Part shown: piece by piece, positions 23,390-31,188 of the stretch
How positions within the stretch are numbered: the stretch's first letter is position 1
How the letters are laid out: the number at the start of each line of letters is the position of its first letter
DNA from: Acidihalobacter ferrooxydans
Lineage (GTDB): Bacteria; Pseudomonadota; Gammaproteobacteria; DSM-5130; Acidihalobacteraceae
Direction of reading: 5' to 3'
Length of the DNA: 64,000 nt
NCBI RefSeq assembly: GCF_001975725.1
Contig: NZ_CP019434.1
Coordinates: forward strand, 1,633,486 to 1,697,485
Notes under the pieces: generated by a model
Told to the model about the DNA's origin: nothing
Database searches by the model: none
Seen by the model: the letters and a program-made list of their open reading frames with translations, nothing else
Position numbers and translations under genes: made by a program

Positions 23390-24682
23390 TCAGACCAGCA
23401 AGGCTTCTGCTGTGCGACGCCAGGCGGCGATCATTTCCGCTTCCAGCGCGTGCAGCTGATCCAGCTCCGGTTCTCCTGACTGTCGCGCGAAAGCCGCGAT
23501 GGTACGCGCCAGGCGCTCTTCCAGAGCATACAGTTCGGCCGCGGCAGTGACCGCCTCCGGTGGCCAGCCGTCGTGGTCGTCTTCCGTCCGGCTGAAATGG
23601 CGCAGTGGTGCCTCACTCTGCTTGATGGCCGCCTCGCGTGGGCCCGAACGAAGCAGGTTTAAAGCGGTCTCATACCAGCCCCGATGGCTTAGCATGGCCT
23701 GATCGAGCTGCATGACGGGTGGCAGCTTTAACACCGGGGGCGGCGGTTCGGCCACGGCGGGGGGCATCCGGCCTAGCGCCTCCTCCTGAGACTCCAGGTT
23801 CCGGCGCAAGGCATCCAAGGTCTGCGCGAACGATTCCATGTGTGCGTTCAATGAGGCAAAAGCGGTGTTCGCACTGCTCGCGGTGTCGATCGCCTGCCGA
23901 TTGTCCGTGTTCTGCTGGGCGGCCTGGTTCATCATGGCCAGTGTTTCAATCACGCTTTCGAGGCTACCGAGACTGTCCTGAATCCGGCGTATCCCCGTAT
24001 CCACATGGGCGTTCACCCGGCTGACGCCGGCGCCGATGGTTTCGGCGGACTGGCGAATGTCAGTGGCCGCATTCTCGGAATTCTGGGCCAGCTTCTTGAC
24101 CTCATCGGCCACCACGGCGAAGCCGCGTCCGTGTTCGCCGGCGCGGGCAGCCTCGATGGCTGCATTGAGTGCGAGCAGACGCGTCTGTTGGGCAATTTCC
24201 TGCGATTTGCCCGACAGTTTGGTGATGGCATTGGCATCGCGCCGGAATTCTTCCGTGACCGCACGCATGGTATTCATCGCCGTTTCGATCTGATCCATCT
24301 TACCGACCAGCTCAGACATTTGTTCATTGCTATGCTGAACGTGTCGCTTGATACCGCTGGCGAGCGAGGTGGTTTCCTGAAGGTGCTGTGATACGGATTC
24401 GGCGTATCGGGCGAGCAGGCCGACATCATCCCCGAACGCCTGAAGTACCTGCCGGGCCGCTTCCACGGCACGCTTCGATGCCGCGGACATGTCCTGGCCC
24501 GCGGCGCAGCGCTCCAGCGTCTCCAGATGCCGGTCGATGAGCCGGTTGCACCAGCAGGCGTGTTCATCGAACCATTGCTTCCAGCGGGCATCTTCCGGGT
24601 CCGGCAACGATTCCTGTGCAATGGGCCGCCGTTCCTCTTCGGGCTCGCTCAGGCTGGTTTCCTGTTCTGTCGTCATGGGCAT
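23390..24682 (-). CDS. Soluble methyl-accepting chemotaxis-type receptor
   Basis: The 430-residue protein has no membrane segment and no recognisable PAS domain. A helical N-terminus is followed by a chemoreceptor signalling domain with the hairpin tip [20 protein letters not shown] near residue 168, so it should bind CheA through CheV. The C-terminal 100 residues have the layout of a CZB zinc-binding domain ([13 protein letters not shown], then a helix) but lack its Cys-Phe-Gly-x-Trp core and the HxxxH pair, so they look degenerate. It is the last gene of the chemotaxis operon. Its ATG lies four bases after the cheV stop. Confidence 0.87.
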
Positions 24683-24686
24683 GGTC

Positions 24687-25643
24687 TCAAGCAGGTTTGT
24701 GGATCACTCTGGACACGGCCTCGGCCAACGAGTCGGGCTCGAATTTGGGCACGTAGCCGTCGGCGCCGACGGTGCTGGCATGGGCTTCGTTGGCGCTGCC
24801 GGACAGGGATGAGTGGATCACCACCGGGATGGCATGCAAGGCGTCGGATTCTTTGATCTTTCGCGTCAGGGTGAAGCCGTCCATTTCAGGCATCTCGAGA
24901 TCAGTCAGCACCAGCGCTACCTTCTGCGTGATAGGCACCTCCGCTGCCTTGGCATCGTGCGCCAGCGCCTGCAAACGCTCCCAGGCTTCCTGGCCGGTCT
25001 TGGTGCTGATAAACGGCAGGTCCAGGGCGTGCAGGGTTTTTTCGATTTGCGAGCGCGCCACTGCCGAGTCGTCGGCATAGAGAATCACCGCGCCGGGCGG
25101 TATTTCCACCTGATGCGTCCGGCGCATTTCGTCCCCGCTTTTGAAGCGCGAGGGCAGGGTCTGGCGCAGAATGGCTTCCACGTCGAGCACCAGCGCCAGC
25201 CGGGACTGCTCCGGATTCTCATCGAGGCGGGCCAGGCTGGTGACCAGTCCGCCCACGGCCGAGCCTTCCGCCGACAGCACGCGGCTCCATTCCAGCCGGA
25301 CGATTTCATCGACTTCCTCGACCGCGAAGCCCTGGATGGAGCGTTCGTATTCGGTGACGAGCAAAATATTGCGACCCGTGGGCTGGCAATCGACGATAGA
25401 CGGCAGGTCGATCACGGGCACGATCTGACCGCGGATATTAGCTACGCCGAGCACATGCTCCGGCGCACCTGGCATGGGCGTGATCTCCGGCATCACCAGG
25501 GCTTCGCGCACCTTGAACACATTGATGCCGAAATATTCCCGCTGGCCGCTGCGCCGATCCTGACCGAGGCGGAACACCAGCAGTTCGAAGCGGTTGGTGC
25601 CCGCCAGTTTGGTGCGTTCCTCGATGTCCTGCAGGGCGCTCAT
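24687..25643 (-). CDS. cheV: Chemotaxis coupling protein CheV (CheW-REC)
   Basis: CheV couples receptors to CheA like CheW and adds a receiver domain for adaptation. The 318-residue protein has an N-terminal CheW domain ([14 protein letters not shown], and [17 protein letters not shown]) and a C-terminal receiver domain ([18 protein letters not shown], phosphoacceptor Asp in [13 protein letters not shown]). The ATG at 25643 follows GGAGG and gives normal CheV length; the longer open frame upstream overlaps the next receptor gene. No cheW exists in this window, so CheV may be the main coupler of this array. The start overlaps the stop of the receptor gene at 25640. Confidence 0.95.
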
Positions 25644-26902
25644 GGGGAAACCTCCAGATTCGTTTCGGCATCTGCGGCCAGTTGTTCGAGGCGTTCTACG
25701 AATCGCGCCTTCGCGGATTCGATTTCGCCTGAAAGGCGGTTGACGGTCTGCGCATCGCCGTGTTCGAGAGCGTCCAGCAATGCTCGGGCCGAGGCATGGA
25801 TAGCGGCATGTTCCGATTCGATCTCGCGGAAGCGAGGCAGTCGACTGGCCAGTTTCTGGCCTGCACCGTAATACCATTGGCCGAAGGCGCATTGATGATG
25901 ATCGGGAATATCCTCGGCATGGAGCGAGCGTATGCCCGAGAGCGCTTCATCGATCACTCTGCGCACCAAGACCACATGCGATTGGATGGCGTTGCGCGCG
26001 GTGAGCAGGGTGGCCAGATCGCCGATCTTCTCTACCGAACGCAGGGCGGTACCCAGCGCGGTGTGGGCATGGTCGGCCCCCTGAATCGCTTGCTGACTGG
26101 TTTCGTCGATATCCTCGGCCGCGCCGTGAATACTCTCGATGTTCGCCTGCACTTCGTCGGTTGCCGCCTGCACCCGCCGGGACAGATTGCGCACCTCGTC
26201 GGCGACCACGGCGAAACCACGGCCATGCTCGCCTGCACGGGCGGCCTCAATTGCGGCATTTAGCGCCAGCAGATTGGTCTGATAGGCGATTTCGCGGATG
26301 TTCTGGGCGATTTTGGCGATTGACGTCACCTTGCCCTTGAGCGAATCCACGCCCTGACGGTTTGCCTGGATGGCATCGATAAGGTTTTTCATGGGCTGTT
26401 CGGCCAGGCGCACGCTGTCGATCGCGCCCGATTCGACCCGCCCCAGCCTGTCACTGTCCTGATTGGCGGTCTTCAGGGCGCCGTCGGCCACATGCGCAAT
26501 GAATTCGGCAGACGTAATGTCCCGCCACGAGGCGTGGAAAGCCAGTACCTTTCCCTCAGCGTCGCACAGGGTGGAAAACGACAGTTGGAGCAAGGTGTCT
26601 CCAAGCTTGAGACTGGCGGTGTGGATTGTTCCTGGCGTCGCCGCCAACTCGCGCAGAATGACGCGGATGCGTTCCGGGTCCTTGTGAAACTGGTGAATGG
26701 AGTGGCCCAGGGCAGAGCGGGTGTCTGCATGGCCGGGAAGATATTCGGCGAGTTGCGCATGATAGCGGCCCATGACGTTTAACGCAGTGGGGTTCATGTA
26801 GACGATCCTGTTCTCATAGTCGGGATCGGCCTCGGCCAGCATTTCCATGCTGTCCAGCGGATCGAGGGCCTGTCTCAGCAGGTTCAGAATTTCGGCTTGC
26901 AT
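25640..26902 (-). CDS. Cytoplasmic chemoreceptor: PAS, MCP signalling and CZB zinc-binding domains
   Basis: The 420-residue protein lacks membrane helices. Residues 1-130 form a PAS-like sensor ([19 protein letters not shown], and [13 protein letters not shown]). Residues of about 140-310 form a short receptor signalling domain with [20 protein letters not shown]. Residues of about 320-420 match a CZB domain, with its zinc ligands in [15 protein letters not shown] and SEHAAIH. CZB domains in other receptors respond to zinc or oxidants. The upstream neighbour is a di-iron ODP protein, so this receptor is a good candidate for the partner that relays its signal. The ATG lies 18 bases after the ODP gene. 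Confidence 0.88.
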
Positions 26903-26920
26903 GAAAGGCTCCTTTGGGAT

Positions 26921-27697
26921 TCATTCCTGATTGGCGTCGAGTGCGATACCGACCGGCAGGGCTTCGAACCAGTCGAGGAAACGCTTGACATGCGGGCCGG
27001 CGTAGATGGCGCCATGCTGAGGGCAGAGAACGTCCACCTTCAGCATGCGCATGCGGTCTATCCAGTCTTTTTTAGCCCGGTTGGACGGCATCCAGCGCTG
27101 GTGGAAATAACGCGCACCATGCTGGATGTGATCGGCGAACGCCTTGTCGCCGCCAGCGCCGGCTATGTCGCGCCGGTCGATGAACGGCGCGTGGCCCGGC
27201 GGCAGCAGGGCTGCCCCCACGTCGCCGGAGAAATAGACCCTGGATTCCGGGTCGTATACATGGAAATTGCTGGAAGCGTGCAGATAATGAGCCGGTACGA
27301 ATTCAAGCCGCCGTCCGCCCAGAACCATGTCCAGCCCCTCGTCGGGAATGTCGATGAAGGGCGTGTCGAGCGCACCGTAATGGCGGATGAAGCCGTTCCA
27401 GAGTTTGGGGACATACCATTGCATGTCGGGTTTGCAGGCGGCCCACAAGGGCAGGCTGGAGGCGATGTCCGGGTCCTGGTGCGAGACGAAAGCGGCGCGG
27501 ATGGCCGAGGGCGGTACGATCTCGGTGACTGCGGCGAAGACCTGGGGGAATATCTCGAATCCGCCCGGATCCAGAATCATGGCCTCGCCACGTGACTCGA
27601 CCACGTAGACGTTGGAATCAATGACCCGCTGTTCTTCCTGATCATAGATCACCCACCAGCGGTGATCGCTGGTTTCATAGACCGGTGCGGCTTTCAT
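26921..27697 (-). CDS. ODP-type di-iron metallo-beta-lactamase-fold protein, probable oxygen/iron sensor for chemotaxis
   Basis: The 258-residue protein has the flavo-diiron type beta-lactamase fold without the flavodoxin domain, so it is unlikely to be an oxygen reductase. Candidate iron ligands are His73, Asp75 and Asp77 (SHQDPDIASS), His137 or His140 (PAHYLHASSNF), Asp159 (YFSGDVGAAL) and His228 (CPQHGAIY). This set resembles ODP of Treponema denticola, an iron and oxygen sensor that works with a chemoreceptor. The ATG at 27697 follows GGAGGAG and overlaps the preceding gene by 23 bases, indicating coupling. The position among cheA, receptors and cheV supports a sensory role; the ligand is inferred. 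Confidence 0.82.
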   Translation of the reverse strand: MKAAPVYETSDHRWWVIYDQEEQRVIDSNVYVVESRGEAMILDPGGFEIFPQVFAAVTEIVPPSAIRAAFVSHQDPDIASSLPLWAACKPDMQWYVPKLWNGFIRHYGALDTPFIDIPDEGLDMVLGGRRLEFVPAHYLHASSNFHVYDPESRVYFSGDVGAALLPPGHAPFIDRRDIAGAGGDKAFADHIQHGARYFHQRWMPSNRAKKDWIDRMRMLKVDVLCPQHGAIYAGPHVKRFLDWFEALPVGIALDANQE

Positions 27698-28286
27698 GCG
27701 TGAACTCCTCCAGCGTGTTTTTCCATTGATCGATCGTTTCACGAACCTCCCCGACAGCCTGTCCCATTTCACGTGACACCCGCGTCAGCGGCGCTCCGGT
27801 ATTTTCGGAGAGCGCCGCTTCGATGCGCCCGTTGGTGACCACGTATTCCTGTTCGGCGATGGCTTCCTGAAAGCGTTCCACGTCCTTGAGTAATTGAACC
27901 AAAATTCGGGCCATGTGCTTTTCTGCGCTTTTGATCTGTTGCTGCCATAGCGCTTGCGTTTCGGCCAATTGACCCATTGAGCGGTTTGTTTTTCCCAACA
28001 TCGAGCCAACCATGTCGCCGTAGAGCCTGTATTGCATGACCCGCATGGAAGCTTCCACCAGAGGCGCTACAGCCTGTTGCAAGCGTTGCGCGTCGGTCTG
28101 CATCTTGGCGGCCTGATCGCGAAAGGCGCCGGCGATGACGCCATAGCCGGCCAGCGCATTGCCATGCCGCTTGACCAGCACCATTGCGTTGAGCGCCCGG
28201 CGGTCGATGTCGCGCAGGGCACGGTTGACCCGATGCCGTGTGTGATGGGTGTTTTCAACCAGTGTCATAAGCGATTGCAGATTCAT
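27675..28286 (-). CDS. Small all-helical protein with a degenerate chemoreceptor tip
   Basis: I know no named family for this 203-residue protein. It is predicted helical throughout, with no membrane segment. Residues 31-59, starting ALNAMVLVKRHGNALAGYGV, align without gaps to the receptor hairpin tip. Relative to Tsr numbering, Leu380, Asn381, Arg388, Gly390, Gly395 and Val398 are kept, but Glu385 is Leu and Glu391 is Asn. The remaining 140 residues form long amphipathic helices. It lies between cheA and the ODP gene, with GGGAGAC before its ATG, and is clearly part of the operon. It may bind CheA, CheV or receptors as a partial or decoy tip. Confidence 0.7.
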   Translation of the reverse strand: MNLQSLMTLVENTHHTRHRVNRALRDIDRRALNAMVLVKRHGNALAGYGVIAGAFRDQAAKMQTDAQRLQQAVAPLVEASMRVMQYRLYGDMVGSMLGKTNRSMGQLAETQALWQQQIKSAEKHMARILVQLLKDVERFQEAIAEQEYVVTNGRIEAALSENTGAPLTRVSREMGQAVGEVRETIDQWKNTLEEFTHESRTGL

Positions 28287-28305
28287 ACCGTCTCCCGGGC
28301 GGCGC

Positions 28306-30273
28306 TTAGCCGGCGGTCGTCTGTTCGTTGGCCAGGCGGACCATCGCCTGAGGATCGAGGATCAGGATGACGCGTCCCTGACCGGAGAGGCTGGCGCCCT
28401 GATACCAGTGCTGATCGCCCACGAAATCCAGCGGCTTGACCACGCAGTCTTCATTGCCCAGCACTTCCGAGAACAGCAGCACGCCACCTTGGGTGAGGAT
28501 GCCCTCGACCGGTTCCGCGCCCAGGCGAAGGGGACGTTGCTGCAGGATTTCACCCAGGTCGATCACGGGCAGCACGTCCTGATCGCTCACCCGGTAAAGC
28601 ACTCGCGACCGTATGCGATTCATGCGCTGGGGCTCGATATCGAGCAGGCTGTCGATGGCCGAGATCGGCAGGGCGTAGGTGTCGCGGCGCAGCTTTGCGT
28701 AGAGGACCGGCAGCACGGCGAGAGAAAGCGGGAATTCCATCGCGACGGTGGAGCCCTTGCCGGGCTCGGTATGCAACTCCAGCCGTCCGCGCAGGGAACG
28801 CACTGTCTCTTTGACGACGTCCATCCCCACGCCCCGGCCGGAGAGTTCGCTGGCCTGGTCTTTGGTGGAGAAGCCAGGCCGGAAGATCAGATCGAGCATT
28901 TCCTGCCGGCTCAACCGGGCCGCTTCATGGGCATCGAGCAGGCCCTTTTCCACCGCTTTGCGGGCTACGGCCTGAGCGTCGAGACCGCGCCCGTCGTCGC
29001 TGACCTCGATCCGCACCCGGTCGCCCAGATGGATGGCGGCCAGCTTGAGCGTGGCCTCGGTGGGCTTGCCGCAGGCCTCGCGTTCCTCGGGCGTTTCGAT
29101 GCCGTGATCCAGGCTGTTGCGAACCAGATGGGTGAGCGGGCCGGACAGGGCATCGATGACGGTTTTGTCGATTTCCACGTCCTCGCCGGTGATCACCAGC
29201 CGCACCTGTTTGCCGAGCCGGCGGGAGGCGTCTCGCACCACCCGCGGCATGGCCTGGAACAGCTTGCTGCAGGGCTGCATCCGCAGGCGCATGACTGAGG
29301 TTTGCAGGTCATTGACGGTCAGATCGAGTTCGCGGGCGATACGGGTGAGCTGTTCGTCTTCGACGCCAAGCGCGCTTACGGAGGCGTTGTAGCGGTTGCG
29401 CAGCAGCACCAGCTCGCCGACCTGGTTCATCACCTCGTCCAGGCGAGCGGCTTCAACCCGCAGTGTCGTCTCACCAGCGACGCGCGTTGATCCAGACCCG
29501 GCGGATTGCGGGGGCGGCGCGTGCGTGCTTTCGGCTTTCGCCGCCGGTGGAGGCGGCGGTGGCGGATGAGGCGCTGTCCCGGCGTTCGAGGGATCGGGTC
29601 GCTCCATGCCGGGCGCAGTGCCCTCATAGAGCACGTCCAGATAGCGCTCGAACTCCGCGTCGGTGATCTCATCTTCGCCCGCGTGTTCGCCCGCCTGCGG
29701 CGACGCTTCATCGGCCTGAGATGCTCCGCCGTCGGCGAACATTTCGTCGATGTAATCCCCGATGACGCTGTCGGCATCAGTTCGTTCGACGAAGATGCCG
29801 TCGTCACCGTCGGGTTTTTCCCTCCGGGTGGCGCGGTAACGGCCGGTGCCTGGGTTGTCAGCCGTTTCTTCCGGGACGGAAGGCGGACTGTCTTCTCTGG
29901 CAGCCTCCTGAATCCGACGGCCCAGCGTCTCGGGGCCGGGTTCCGGCATTTGACCGCTCGCGAGCGCGCCGAGCATATCGGAGATGACATCGCTGCCCCG
30001 CAGGATGACATCGATGCGTTCGGGAGTGACGGAAAGGCTTTGCGCGCGCAGCTTGTCGAGCAGGTCTTCGAGGTGGTGGGTCCAGTCGACCAGAGACCGG
30101 GCTTCGACGAAGCCGGCGCCGCCCTTGAGGGTATGAAAGGCGCGAAACAGCGAGGCCAGCAGCGCGTCGTTGTGTGGATCGCCTTCCAGTGCCAGGGCGT
30201 CGTTTTGCGCCTGCTCGAGCAGTTCTTGCGCTTCGACGACGAATTCCTGTACCAGTTCCTGATCCATGCTCAT
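28306..30273 (-). CDS. cheA: Chemotaxis histidine kinase CheA
   Basis: CheA autophosphorylates in response to receptors and passes phosphate to CheY. The 655-residue protein has the P1 domain with phosphoacceptor His47 (LFRAFHTLKGGAGF). A long acidic and Pro-rich linker at about 110-265 has no obvious P2 domain. Then follow the P3 dimerisation helices (EVMNQVGELVLLRNRYN), the P4 ATPase (HLVRNSLDHGIETPEER, SDDGRGLD, SGRGVGMDVV) and the P5 CheW-like domain. It overlaps the cheZ stop by four bases. The apparent lack of P2 may slow or change CheY docking. Confidence 0.95.
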   Translation of the reverse strand: MSMDQELVQEFVVEAQELLEQAQNDALALEGDPHNDALLASLFRAFHTLKGGAGFVEARSLVDWTHHLEDLLDKLRAQSLSVTPERIDVILRGSDVISDMLGALASGQMPEPGPETLGRRIQEAAREDSPPSVPEETADNPGTGRYRATRREKPDGDDGIFVERTDADSVIGDYIDEMFADGGASQADEASPQAGEHAGEDEITDAEFERYLDVLYEGTAPGMERPDPSNAGTAPHPPPPPPPAAKAESTHAPPPQSAGSGSTRVAGETTLRVEAARLDEVMNQVGELVLLRNRYNASVSALGVEDEQLTRIARELDLTVNDLQTSVMRLRMQPCSKLFQAMPRVVRDASRRLGKQVRLVITGEDVEIDKTVIDALSGPLTHLVRNSLDHGIETPEEREACGKPTEATLKLAAIHLGDRVRIEVSDDGRGLDAQAVARKAVEKGLLDAHEAARLSRQEMLDLIFRPGFSTKDQASELSGRGVGMDVVKETVRSLRGRLELHTEPGKGSTVAMEFPLSLAVLPVLYAKLRRDTYALPISAIDSLLDIEPQRMNRIRSRVLYRVSDQDVLPVIDLGEILQQRPLRLGAEPVEGILTQGGVLLFSEVLGNEDCVVKPLDFVGDQHWYQGASLSGQGRVILILDPQAMVRLANEQTTAG

Positions 30274-30761
30274 AGCCCCAGTTCCGCCAGCAAATCGTCG
30301 ACTTCGGCCTGGTTGAACGTCTTGGCGTCTTCGCGCCGGGTTTCTGACGCGGCCTGCGCTTTGGGCATGTCGTCGCCATAGGCGACCTGCATTTCGCTGA
30401 TGGTCTCGGCCAACTGTTGTTCCACGGCGCGTAGCAACGTGAGGGCTTTTTTCAGGCGTTGTCCGGTCAGATCCTGTGCCTGCTGGCTGGCCAGGATCTG
30501 GCTGAAACTTTCGGTGATGACAGCCAGAGGCTCGTCGATGAACTGCTCGTTCGCATTGCGGATCGCGGCGACGGCTGCCTGGCCGCGCTCGACCGCGGCC
30601 AGCGAAGCCATAGCCTGTTCCTCGGATAGATGCAGCGCTTCGGTGATCGGATCCTGGGCGTCCGGCAGATCGGTCTGGGCAGCGGCGATGCGTTTCAGTC
30701 CCTCGTGCAGCAGGGCATCGAGCCGGCTGATGTCGGCCAGGGGGGATTTTTTTTCGGTCAT
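30270..30761 (-). CDS. cheZ: CheY phosphatase CheZ (short form)
   Basis: CheZ removes phosphate from CheY. The 163-residue product is shorter than the enteric form of about 214 residues but keeps both essential parts. These are the catalytic helix with the Gln-rich motif SQQAQDLTGQRLKKAL and the C-terminal CheY-binding peptide NQAEVDDLLAELGL. The shortening is in the N-terminal and linker regions. It lies between cheY and cheA, as in other polar flagellates. Confidence 0.94.
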   Translation of the reverse strand: MTEKKSPLADISRLDALLHEGLKRIAAAQTDLPDAQDPITEALHLSEEQAMASLAAVERGQAAVAAIRNANEQFIDEPLAVITESFSQILASQQAQDLTGQRLKKALTLLRAVEQQLAETISEMQVAYGDDMPKAQAASETRREDAKTFNQAEVDDLLAELGL

Positions 30762-30777
30762 GGTTCCTCCTGCGGGA

Positions 30778-31188
30778 TCAGCCTTGCGCGGCCTGCAAGC
30801 GATTGAAAATCGCGTCGAGCTTTTCTTTCAGGGTTTCCGCCGTGAACGGTTTGACGATGTAACCGTTGACCCCGGCTTTGGCCGCTTCGAGGATGTTGTC
30901 GCGCTTGGCTTCGGCCGTGACCATGAGCACGGGGATGGACTTGAGCTGAGGATCGCTGCGGATTTCGCGCAGCAGATCGATGCCCTGCATGACCGGCATG
31001 TTCCAGTCGGAGACGACGAAGTCGAACGGTTTGCTGCGCAACTTTTGCAAGGCTTCCTGGCCGTTTTCGGCTTCTTCGACATTGTTGAATCCCAACTCGC
31101 GCAGCAGATTGCGCACGATCCGACGCATGGTCGAAAAATCGTCCACAGCCAGGATGCGGATGTTCTTGTCTACTTTGTCGATTCCCAC
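30778..31188 (-). CDS. cheY: Chemotaxis response regulator CheY
   Basis: CheY-P binds the FliM N-terminus and changes motor rotation. The 136-residue single-domain receiver has the acidic pair Asp16-Asp17, phosphoacceptor Asp61 (FVVSDWNMP), Thr91 and Lys113 (GYIVKPF). It is the first gene of the minus-strand chemotaxis operon, so the operon promoter should lie in the 31189-31404 interval. I found no convincing sigma-54 or sigma-28 site there, only an isolated GCCGATAG (minus strand) without a -35 match. Confidence 0.96.

Follow-up and report, generated by a model that had tools for sequence, protein, structure and literature searches.

A putative single-chain chemoreceptor-tip protein encoded directly upstream of an oxygen-binding diiron protein in Acidihalobacter ferrooxydans and other Gammaproteobacteria

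Chemoreceptor tips function as dimers packed into trimers, and for this reason their contacts are hard to assign to one subunit. A small protein (hereafter X) is encoded in the chemotaxis operon of Acidihalobacter ferrooxydans, next to an oxygen-binding diiron protein (ODP), and had been predicted from the DNA sequence to carry a degenerate receptor tip. We asked what this protein is and what it may do at this place.

The operon lies on the minus strand of the window, the 64,000-nucleotide stretch that was analyzed, in the order cheY-cheZ-cheA-X-ODP-[PAS-MCP-CZB]-cheV-MCP. Domain matches were found for cheY (30778..31188), cheZ (30270..30761), cheA (28306..30273; Hpt, dimerisation, ATPase, and CheW-like P5), a PAS-MCP-CZB chemoreceptor (25640..26902), and a second chemoreceptor (23390..24682), both receptors being soluble, with no membrane segment. 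The cheV gene (24687..25643, starting at the in-frame ATG 25643) encodes a CheW domain and a receiver. The ODP gene (26921..27697, PF19583) has its metal-binding motifs intact (HQDPD, AH, GD, and QHG); its best solved relatives are the ODPs of T. denticola and T. maritima, with T. denticola ODP as the best PDB match (6qrq, E 2.7e-55). X (27675..28286, 203 aa) lies between cheA and the ODP gene, and shares its last 23 bases with the start of the ODP gene (ATG at 27697). Three receptors only were present in the genome: the two soluble ones of the che operon (23390-31188 of the window) and PilJ in the pilus cluster. CheR and CheB had no match in the genome, and the remaining CheW domains lie in the pilus cluster, leaving CheV as the one coupling protein found on the flagellar side. 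Judged by gene content, flagellar chemotaxis is here a minimal system without methylation-based adaptation.

X proved to be a real gene of the predicted extent inside the chemotaxis operon, with an orthologue of 67% identity at the corresponding place in one same-genus genome. An orphan or decayed gene was considered and rejected, since homologues occur upstream of ODP at many loci. Searched alone, X matched Pfam MCPsignal (PF00015) with E=0.0017 and 18.6 bits, below the curated cut-off of 34.6 bits, in an alignment beginning at residue 31; its sole PDB matches were to the soluble T. maritima receptor (Tm14; 3g67/3g6b, E 0.02-0.04). The similarity was thus to receptors and to no unrelated family. 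As predicted, X lacks a sensor or membrane part: no membrane segment was found (maximum 19-residue hydropathy 0.85), the Pfam search gave no other domain, and the chain has about 50 residues beyond the tip, with methylation helices and sensor domain absent. A CheW/CheV-like adaptor identity was rejected, as X has no match to the CheW domain (PF01584) and an all-helical AlphaFold model.

The predicted tip (tip 1, residues 31-59; 28110..28196, minus strand) was examined by profile alignment and superposition. A profile of 13 members of the family of X matched the PDB entries 3g6b (2.7e-12) and Tsr 1qu7 (9e-7), and MCPsignal was matched at E<=1 by eight of these 13 members, with a best E of 7e-8. 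The N-half profile aligned to a profile of 42 receptor tips with an hhalign E of 3e-16 (reversed control, 0.04); the 42 tips were chosen by motif, and their 100% conservation is by construction. An AlphaFold model of residues 1-100 (pLDDT 89.7) had chemoreceptors as its best Foldseek matches and superposed on Tsr 350-448 over 99 residues at 1.5 A, and also on residues 349-441 of the receptor in the E. coli core unit, where the offset makes X residue 33 the equivalent of Asn381. In this predicted model the N-half has the antiparallel hairpin fold of a receptor tip, and from its superposition on receptor hairpins residues 31-59 form the hairpin bend. The straight helix predicted through tip 1 (3-71, or 3-99 in the N-half model) seemed a refutation, but superposition on Tsr and Tm14 places the bend there. 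Profile alignment and model together confirm that residues 31-59 are a receptor hairpin tip, aligned in register to Tsr Asn381.

The residue equivalences of the original prediction hold as well. Its ungapped alignment was exact, with the counterparts of Leu380, Asn381, Arg388, Gly390, Gly395, and Val398 kept, and tip 1 also keeps Ala382 and Phe396 (as Tyr). The counterparts of Glu385 and Glu391, near-invariant in receptors, are indeed lost, with Leu at the Glu385 position. No single hairpin of X holds all of the near-invariant tip residues Asn381, Glu385, Arg388, Gly390, Glu391, and Gly395.

The prediction of one degenerate tip was upheld by profile and superposition, but the tip is not single: a second lies near the C-terminus (tip 2, residues 146-174; 27765..27851, minus strand). 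Here N152 equals Asn381, I155 Val384, and E156 Glu385, followed by A157 and A158 and by a bend at 160-163, and Arg388 and Gly395 are lost. The family C-half alone aligned to the receptor tips without gaps, with E156 on Glu385 and N152 on Asn381 (hhalign E=1.4e-7). The score of 42 compares with 20 or less in 100 column shuffles and 9 with the motif cut out. Distant members alone gave 37 and the che-operon subgroup alone only 16, which is not significant, so that recognition of tip 2 in X itself depends on the family. Aligning X with 67 companions showed near-invariant positions at A31, N33, A34, G42, G47, and F/Y48 in tip 1, and at E156 and L167 towards the C-terminus. Glu385 is present in tip 1 of none of the 68 sequences and in tip 2 of all 68. 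The Arg388 position is mostly Arg or Lys in tip 1 and rarely so in tip 2, and Gly395 and Phe396 are kept in tip 1, with mostly Pro/Ala/Ser and Leu in tip 2. By this alignment, the two tips of the family have decayed in complementary ways.

The full-length AlphaFold model, made as a monomer with the 68 sequences (pLDDT 94.6, pTM 0.87), has helices at 3-71, 73-99, 105-159, and 164-201, interrupted at 100-104 and, at the bend position of tip 2, at 160-163. Its best structural alignments were with single-chain four-helix bundles (5vjs, 175 residues at 2.2 A; single-chain ROP 1yo7, 117 residues at 1.9 A). Helical bundles match easily, and these matches support only the topology of four helices, which implies a bend at tip 1. 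Whole-model Foldseek matches all had E>0.001, and receptor signalling domains were not at the top; the evidence of kinship was taken solely from the in-register receptor matches of the N-half. Placing the bends at about 45, 102, and 162 gives helix lengths of about 40, 52, 55, and 38 residues. From these lengths and the bundle matches, we infer that both tips would lie at one end, like a receptor-tip dimer in one chain.

One could also take X for an ordinary sensor-less soluble receptor of the Tm14 or TDE2496 kind, forming a homodimer through one long hairpin, with a merely coincidental second tip; indeed, the best N-half matches in sequence and structure are Tm14 (3g67/3g6b) and Tsr. We regard this as improbable. 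Tip 1 is only 31 residues from the N-terminus, whereas the matching stretch of Tm14 starts at residue 107 (its numbering), near the middle, and the independent family-level match of the C-half to receptor tips and the 175-residue match of the whole model to single-chain bundles also argue against it.

How general this design is was examined from the ODP side. ODP (PF19583) was searched in 369 genomes of the class; the frames upstream of the matches encoded X relatives of about 200 aa. A search of the 369 genomes with the family alignment gave 31 strong members, and coordinate comparison placed all of them directly upstream of ODP; the next-best matches were ordinary receptors, with longer frames, matching in the tip region. 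When the GTDB genome contigs were scanned with the ODP alignment, 80 loci came up. Of these, 79 have a same-strand companion directly upstream; the sample partly overlaps the 369 genomes. At the one exception (L114, 1-688), no intact open frame lies upstream: the frames there are broken by many stops and gave no family-profile match. Scored against the window ODP, the ODPs of the loci read reached 210-610 bits where a full companion was present and at most 182 where it was absent. The family is a near-obligate companion of one ODP clade, and the orthologues sought beside ODP genes were found. In 48 of 78 loci the companion gene runs into the ODP start, with overlaps mostly of 4 or 23 bases, and companion and ODP distances were correlated (Mantel r 0.91), a tracking that may reflect shared species descent only.

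Two very divergent companions (L008:731-1420 and L030:2189-2836) stand by an ODP of the same clade and matched a larger profile at E 4e-11 and 3e-25. At G087:C42:4505-5508, a companion with an internal stop stands beside a truncated ODP match, both apparently decayed together, and at G205:C1:112863-113453 the ODP match lies within a 1730-codon open frame, possibly of a fused multidomain protein. A hemerythrin (HHE) protein is encoded directly downstream of ODP in about 23 loci (L128:8647-9246 checked with Pfam, the others by similar ORFs), which suggests a second iron/oxygen protein in the module.

The family is so divergent that scanning the GTDB contigs with X alone gave no matches. Against plasmids, X found only a single weak match, an annotated MCP, and two other members matched only in part, mostly to annotated MCPs. 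Among 299 genomes of the phylum, in which the share of other classes was uncounted, no member was listed outside the class. No existing family in Pfam or NCBIfam covers the companions, in agreement with the statement that no named family has this design, and our literature searches found no description of them.

The link to ODP predicted for X is general in this clade, but the position inside a che operon is not. A conserved che operon, in its full form cheY-cheZ-cheA-X-ODP-MCP-cheV-MCP, surrounds the pair in 26 loci (Acidihalobacter, Acidithiobacillus, Thiomonas, Tibeticola, and related genera). A handful of further loci fall within other che clusters, CheW being the next gene upstream in one of them, and CheW, CheB, CheD, or CheR occurs near the companion in some loci outside the 26-locus group. 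Many pairs stand alone away from che genes (Zoogloea, Dechloromonas, Vibrio, Shewanella), some of them adjoining hemerythrin or Crp/FNR-type genes. These stand-alone pairs, together with the overlapping genes, which suggest co-production, would agree with X being dedicated to the assembly, stability, or iron loading of ODP, having arisen from a captured receptor hairpin and playing no part in chemotaxis. That role seems very unlikely to us, given the conserved che-operon place in 26 loci and the presence of CheA in all 29 genomes with the family, against 236 of 369 overall (P=1e-6); moreover, ODPs of the other clade do without a companion.

In T. denticola, ODP serves chemotaxis as an oxygen sensor. 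It is coupled genetically to TDE2496, an MCP homologue that lacks membrane and sensing modules and modulates CheA; when ODP is deleted, CheA ordering in the arrays changes (PMC7666581). From this coupling, the simplest reading is that X plays the role of TDE2496, and we think it probable that X and ODP form a two-protein oxygen/iron sensor, in which X is the output half and carries the ODP signal to CheA through a receptor-tip pseudo-dimer. X would be a single-chain stand-in for the tip dimer, a four-helix bundle some 50 residues in length in which two tip hairpins are joined head to tail. Its tip end would sit in or against the array of receptors, CheA, and CheV (or CheW). ODP would bind O2 at its diiron site and, in one ligand state, alter the engagement of X with the array, and CheA activity would change. 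X would thus do in Gammaproteobacteria the job of TDE2496, with a more reduced design. Binding of ODP to X, entry into the array, control of the kinase, and which way the response runs are inferred from the gene linkage, the tips, and the T. denticola precedent. The two roles first offered for X, a tip mimic and an adaptor for ODP, are probably one and the same.

Several observations count against X as an output module. The loss of Glu385, and usually of Glu391, in tip 1 may impair CheA/CheW contacts or trimer packing, many homologues lie away from che genes, and tip 2 is undetectable in the che-operon subgroup alone. The main rival, which we hold to be unlikely, is that X acts as a decoy or cap: it would bind CheA P5, CheV, or receptor trimers and be unable to complete an array, limiting growth or sequestering partners until ODP releases or blocks it. 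A partner that binds and does not signal might look like this, with Glu385 missing from tip 1 in 68 of 68 sequences and Arg388 largely missing from tip 2, and the bundle is too short for methylation helices. Such a cap differs from an output module mainly in sign, and the modulation of CheA by TDE2496 (PMC7666581) speaks for the latter.

The evidence leans slightly towards a wider statement: that the family is a widespread, unnamed set of natural receptor-tip pseudo-dimers made from single chains, whose two tips could divide the conserved contact residues after duplication and fusion, and which would serve as a general plug wiring a stand-alone diiron oxygen sensor into chemotaxis arrays. A natural single-chain tip with split conserved residues would separate the roles of Glu385 and of Arg388/Asn381, and X would offer a small soluble tool for CheA control. 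ODP-based oxygen/iron taxis, known from T. denticola, would also be extended to many Gammaproteobacteria, among them acidophiles that oxidise iron and sulfur; here the window genome would be a minimal case, with two soluble receptors, X-ODP, CheV as sole coupling protein, and neither CheR nor CheB.

Among known proteins, CheO of Campylobacter jejuni resembles X as an accessory chemotaxis protein tied to low oxygen. It has no known sensory domain, binds CheA, CheZ, FliM, and FliY, and is reported in Campylobacterota only, with no ODP (PMC9665402); it was considered as an identity for X and rejected. Tm14 (3g67/3g6b) is, like X, a cytoplasmic protein of about 200 aa with a signalling hairpin only, and superposes on the X N-half at 2.0 A over 100 residues; it consists of a single long hairpin whose complete tip lies near the middle, whereas X would have two short hairpins per chain with incomplete tips. 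The Tsr tip (1qu7) is in register with the X N-half (1.5 A over 99 residues), but Tsr builds its four-helix tip from two chains and has methylation helices and complete tips, whereas X is one chain without these. TDE2496, compared by its published description, is like X in consisting only of the receptor-derived signalling part and in being encoded with ODP (PMC7666581). X has two degenerate tips and scores below the MCPsignal cut-off. An ODP-coupled sensor-less receptor is already known from one organism in the literature examined, and what is new is the tandem, complementary, single-chain tip.
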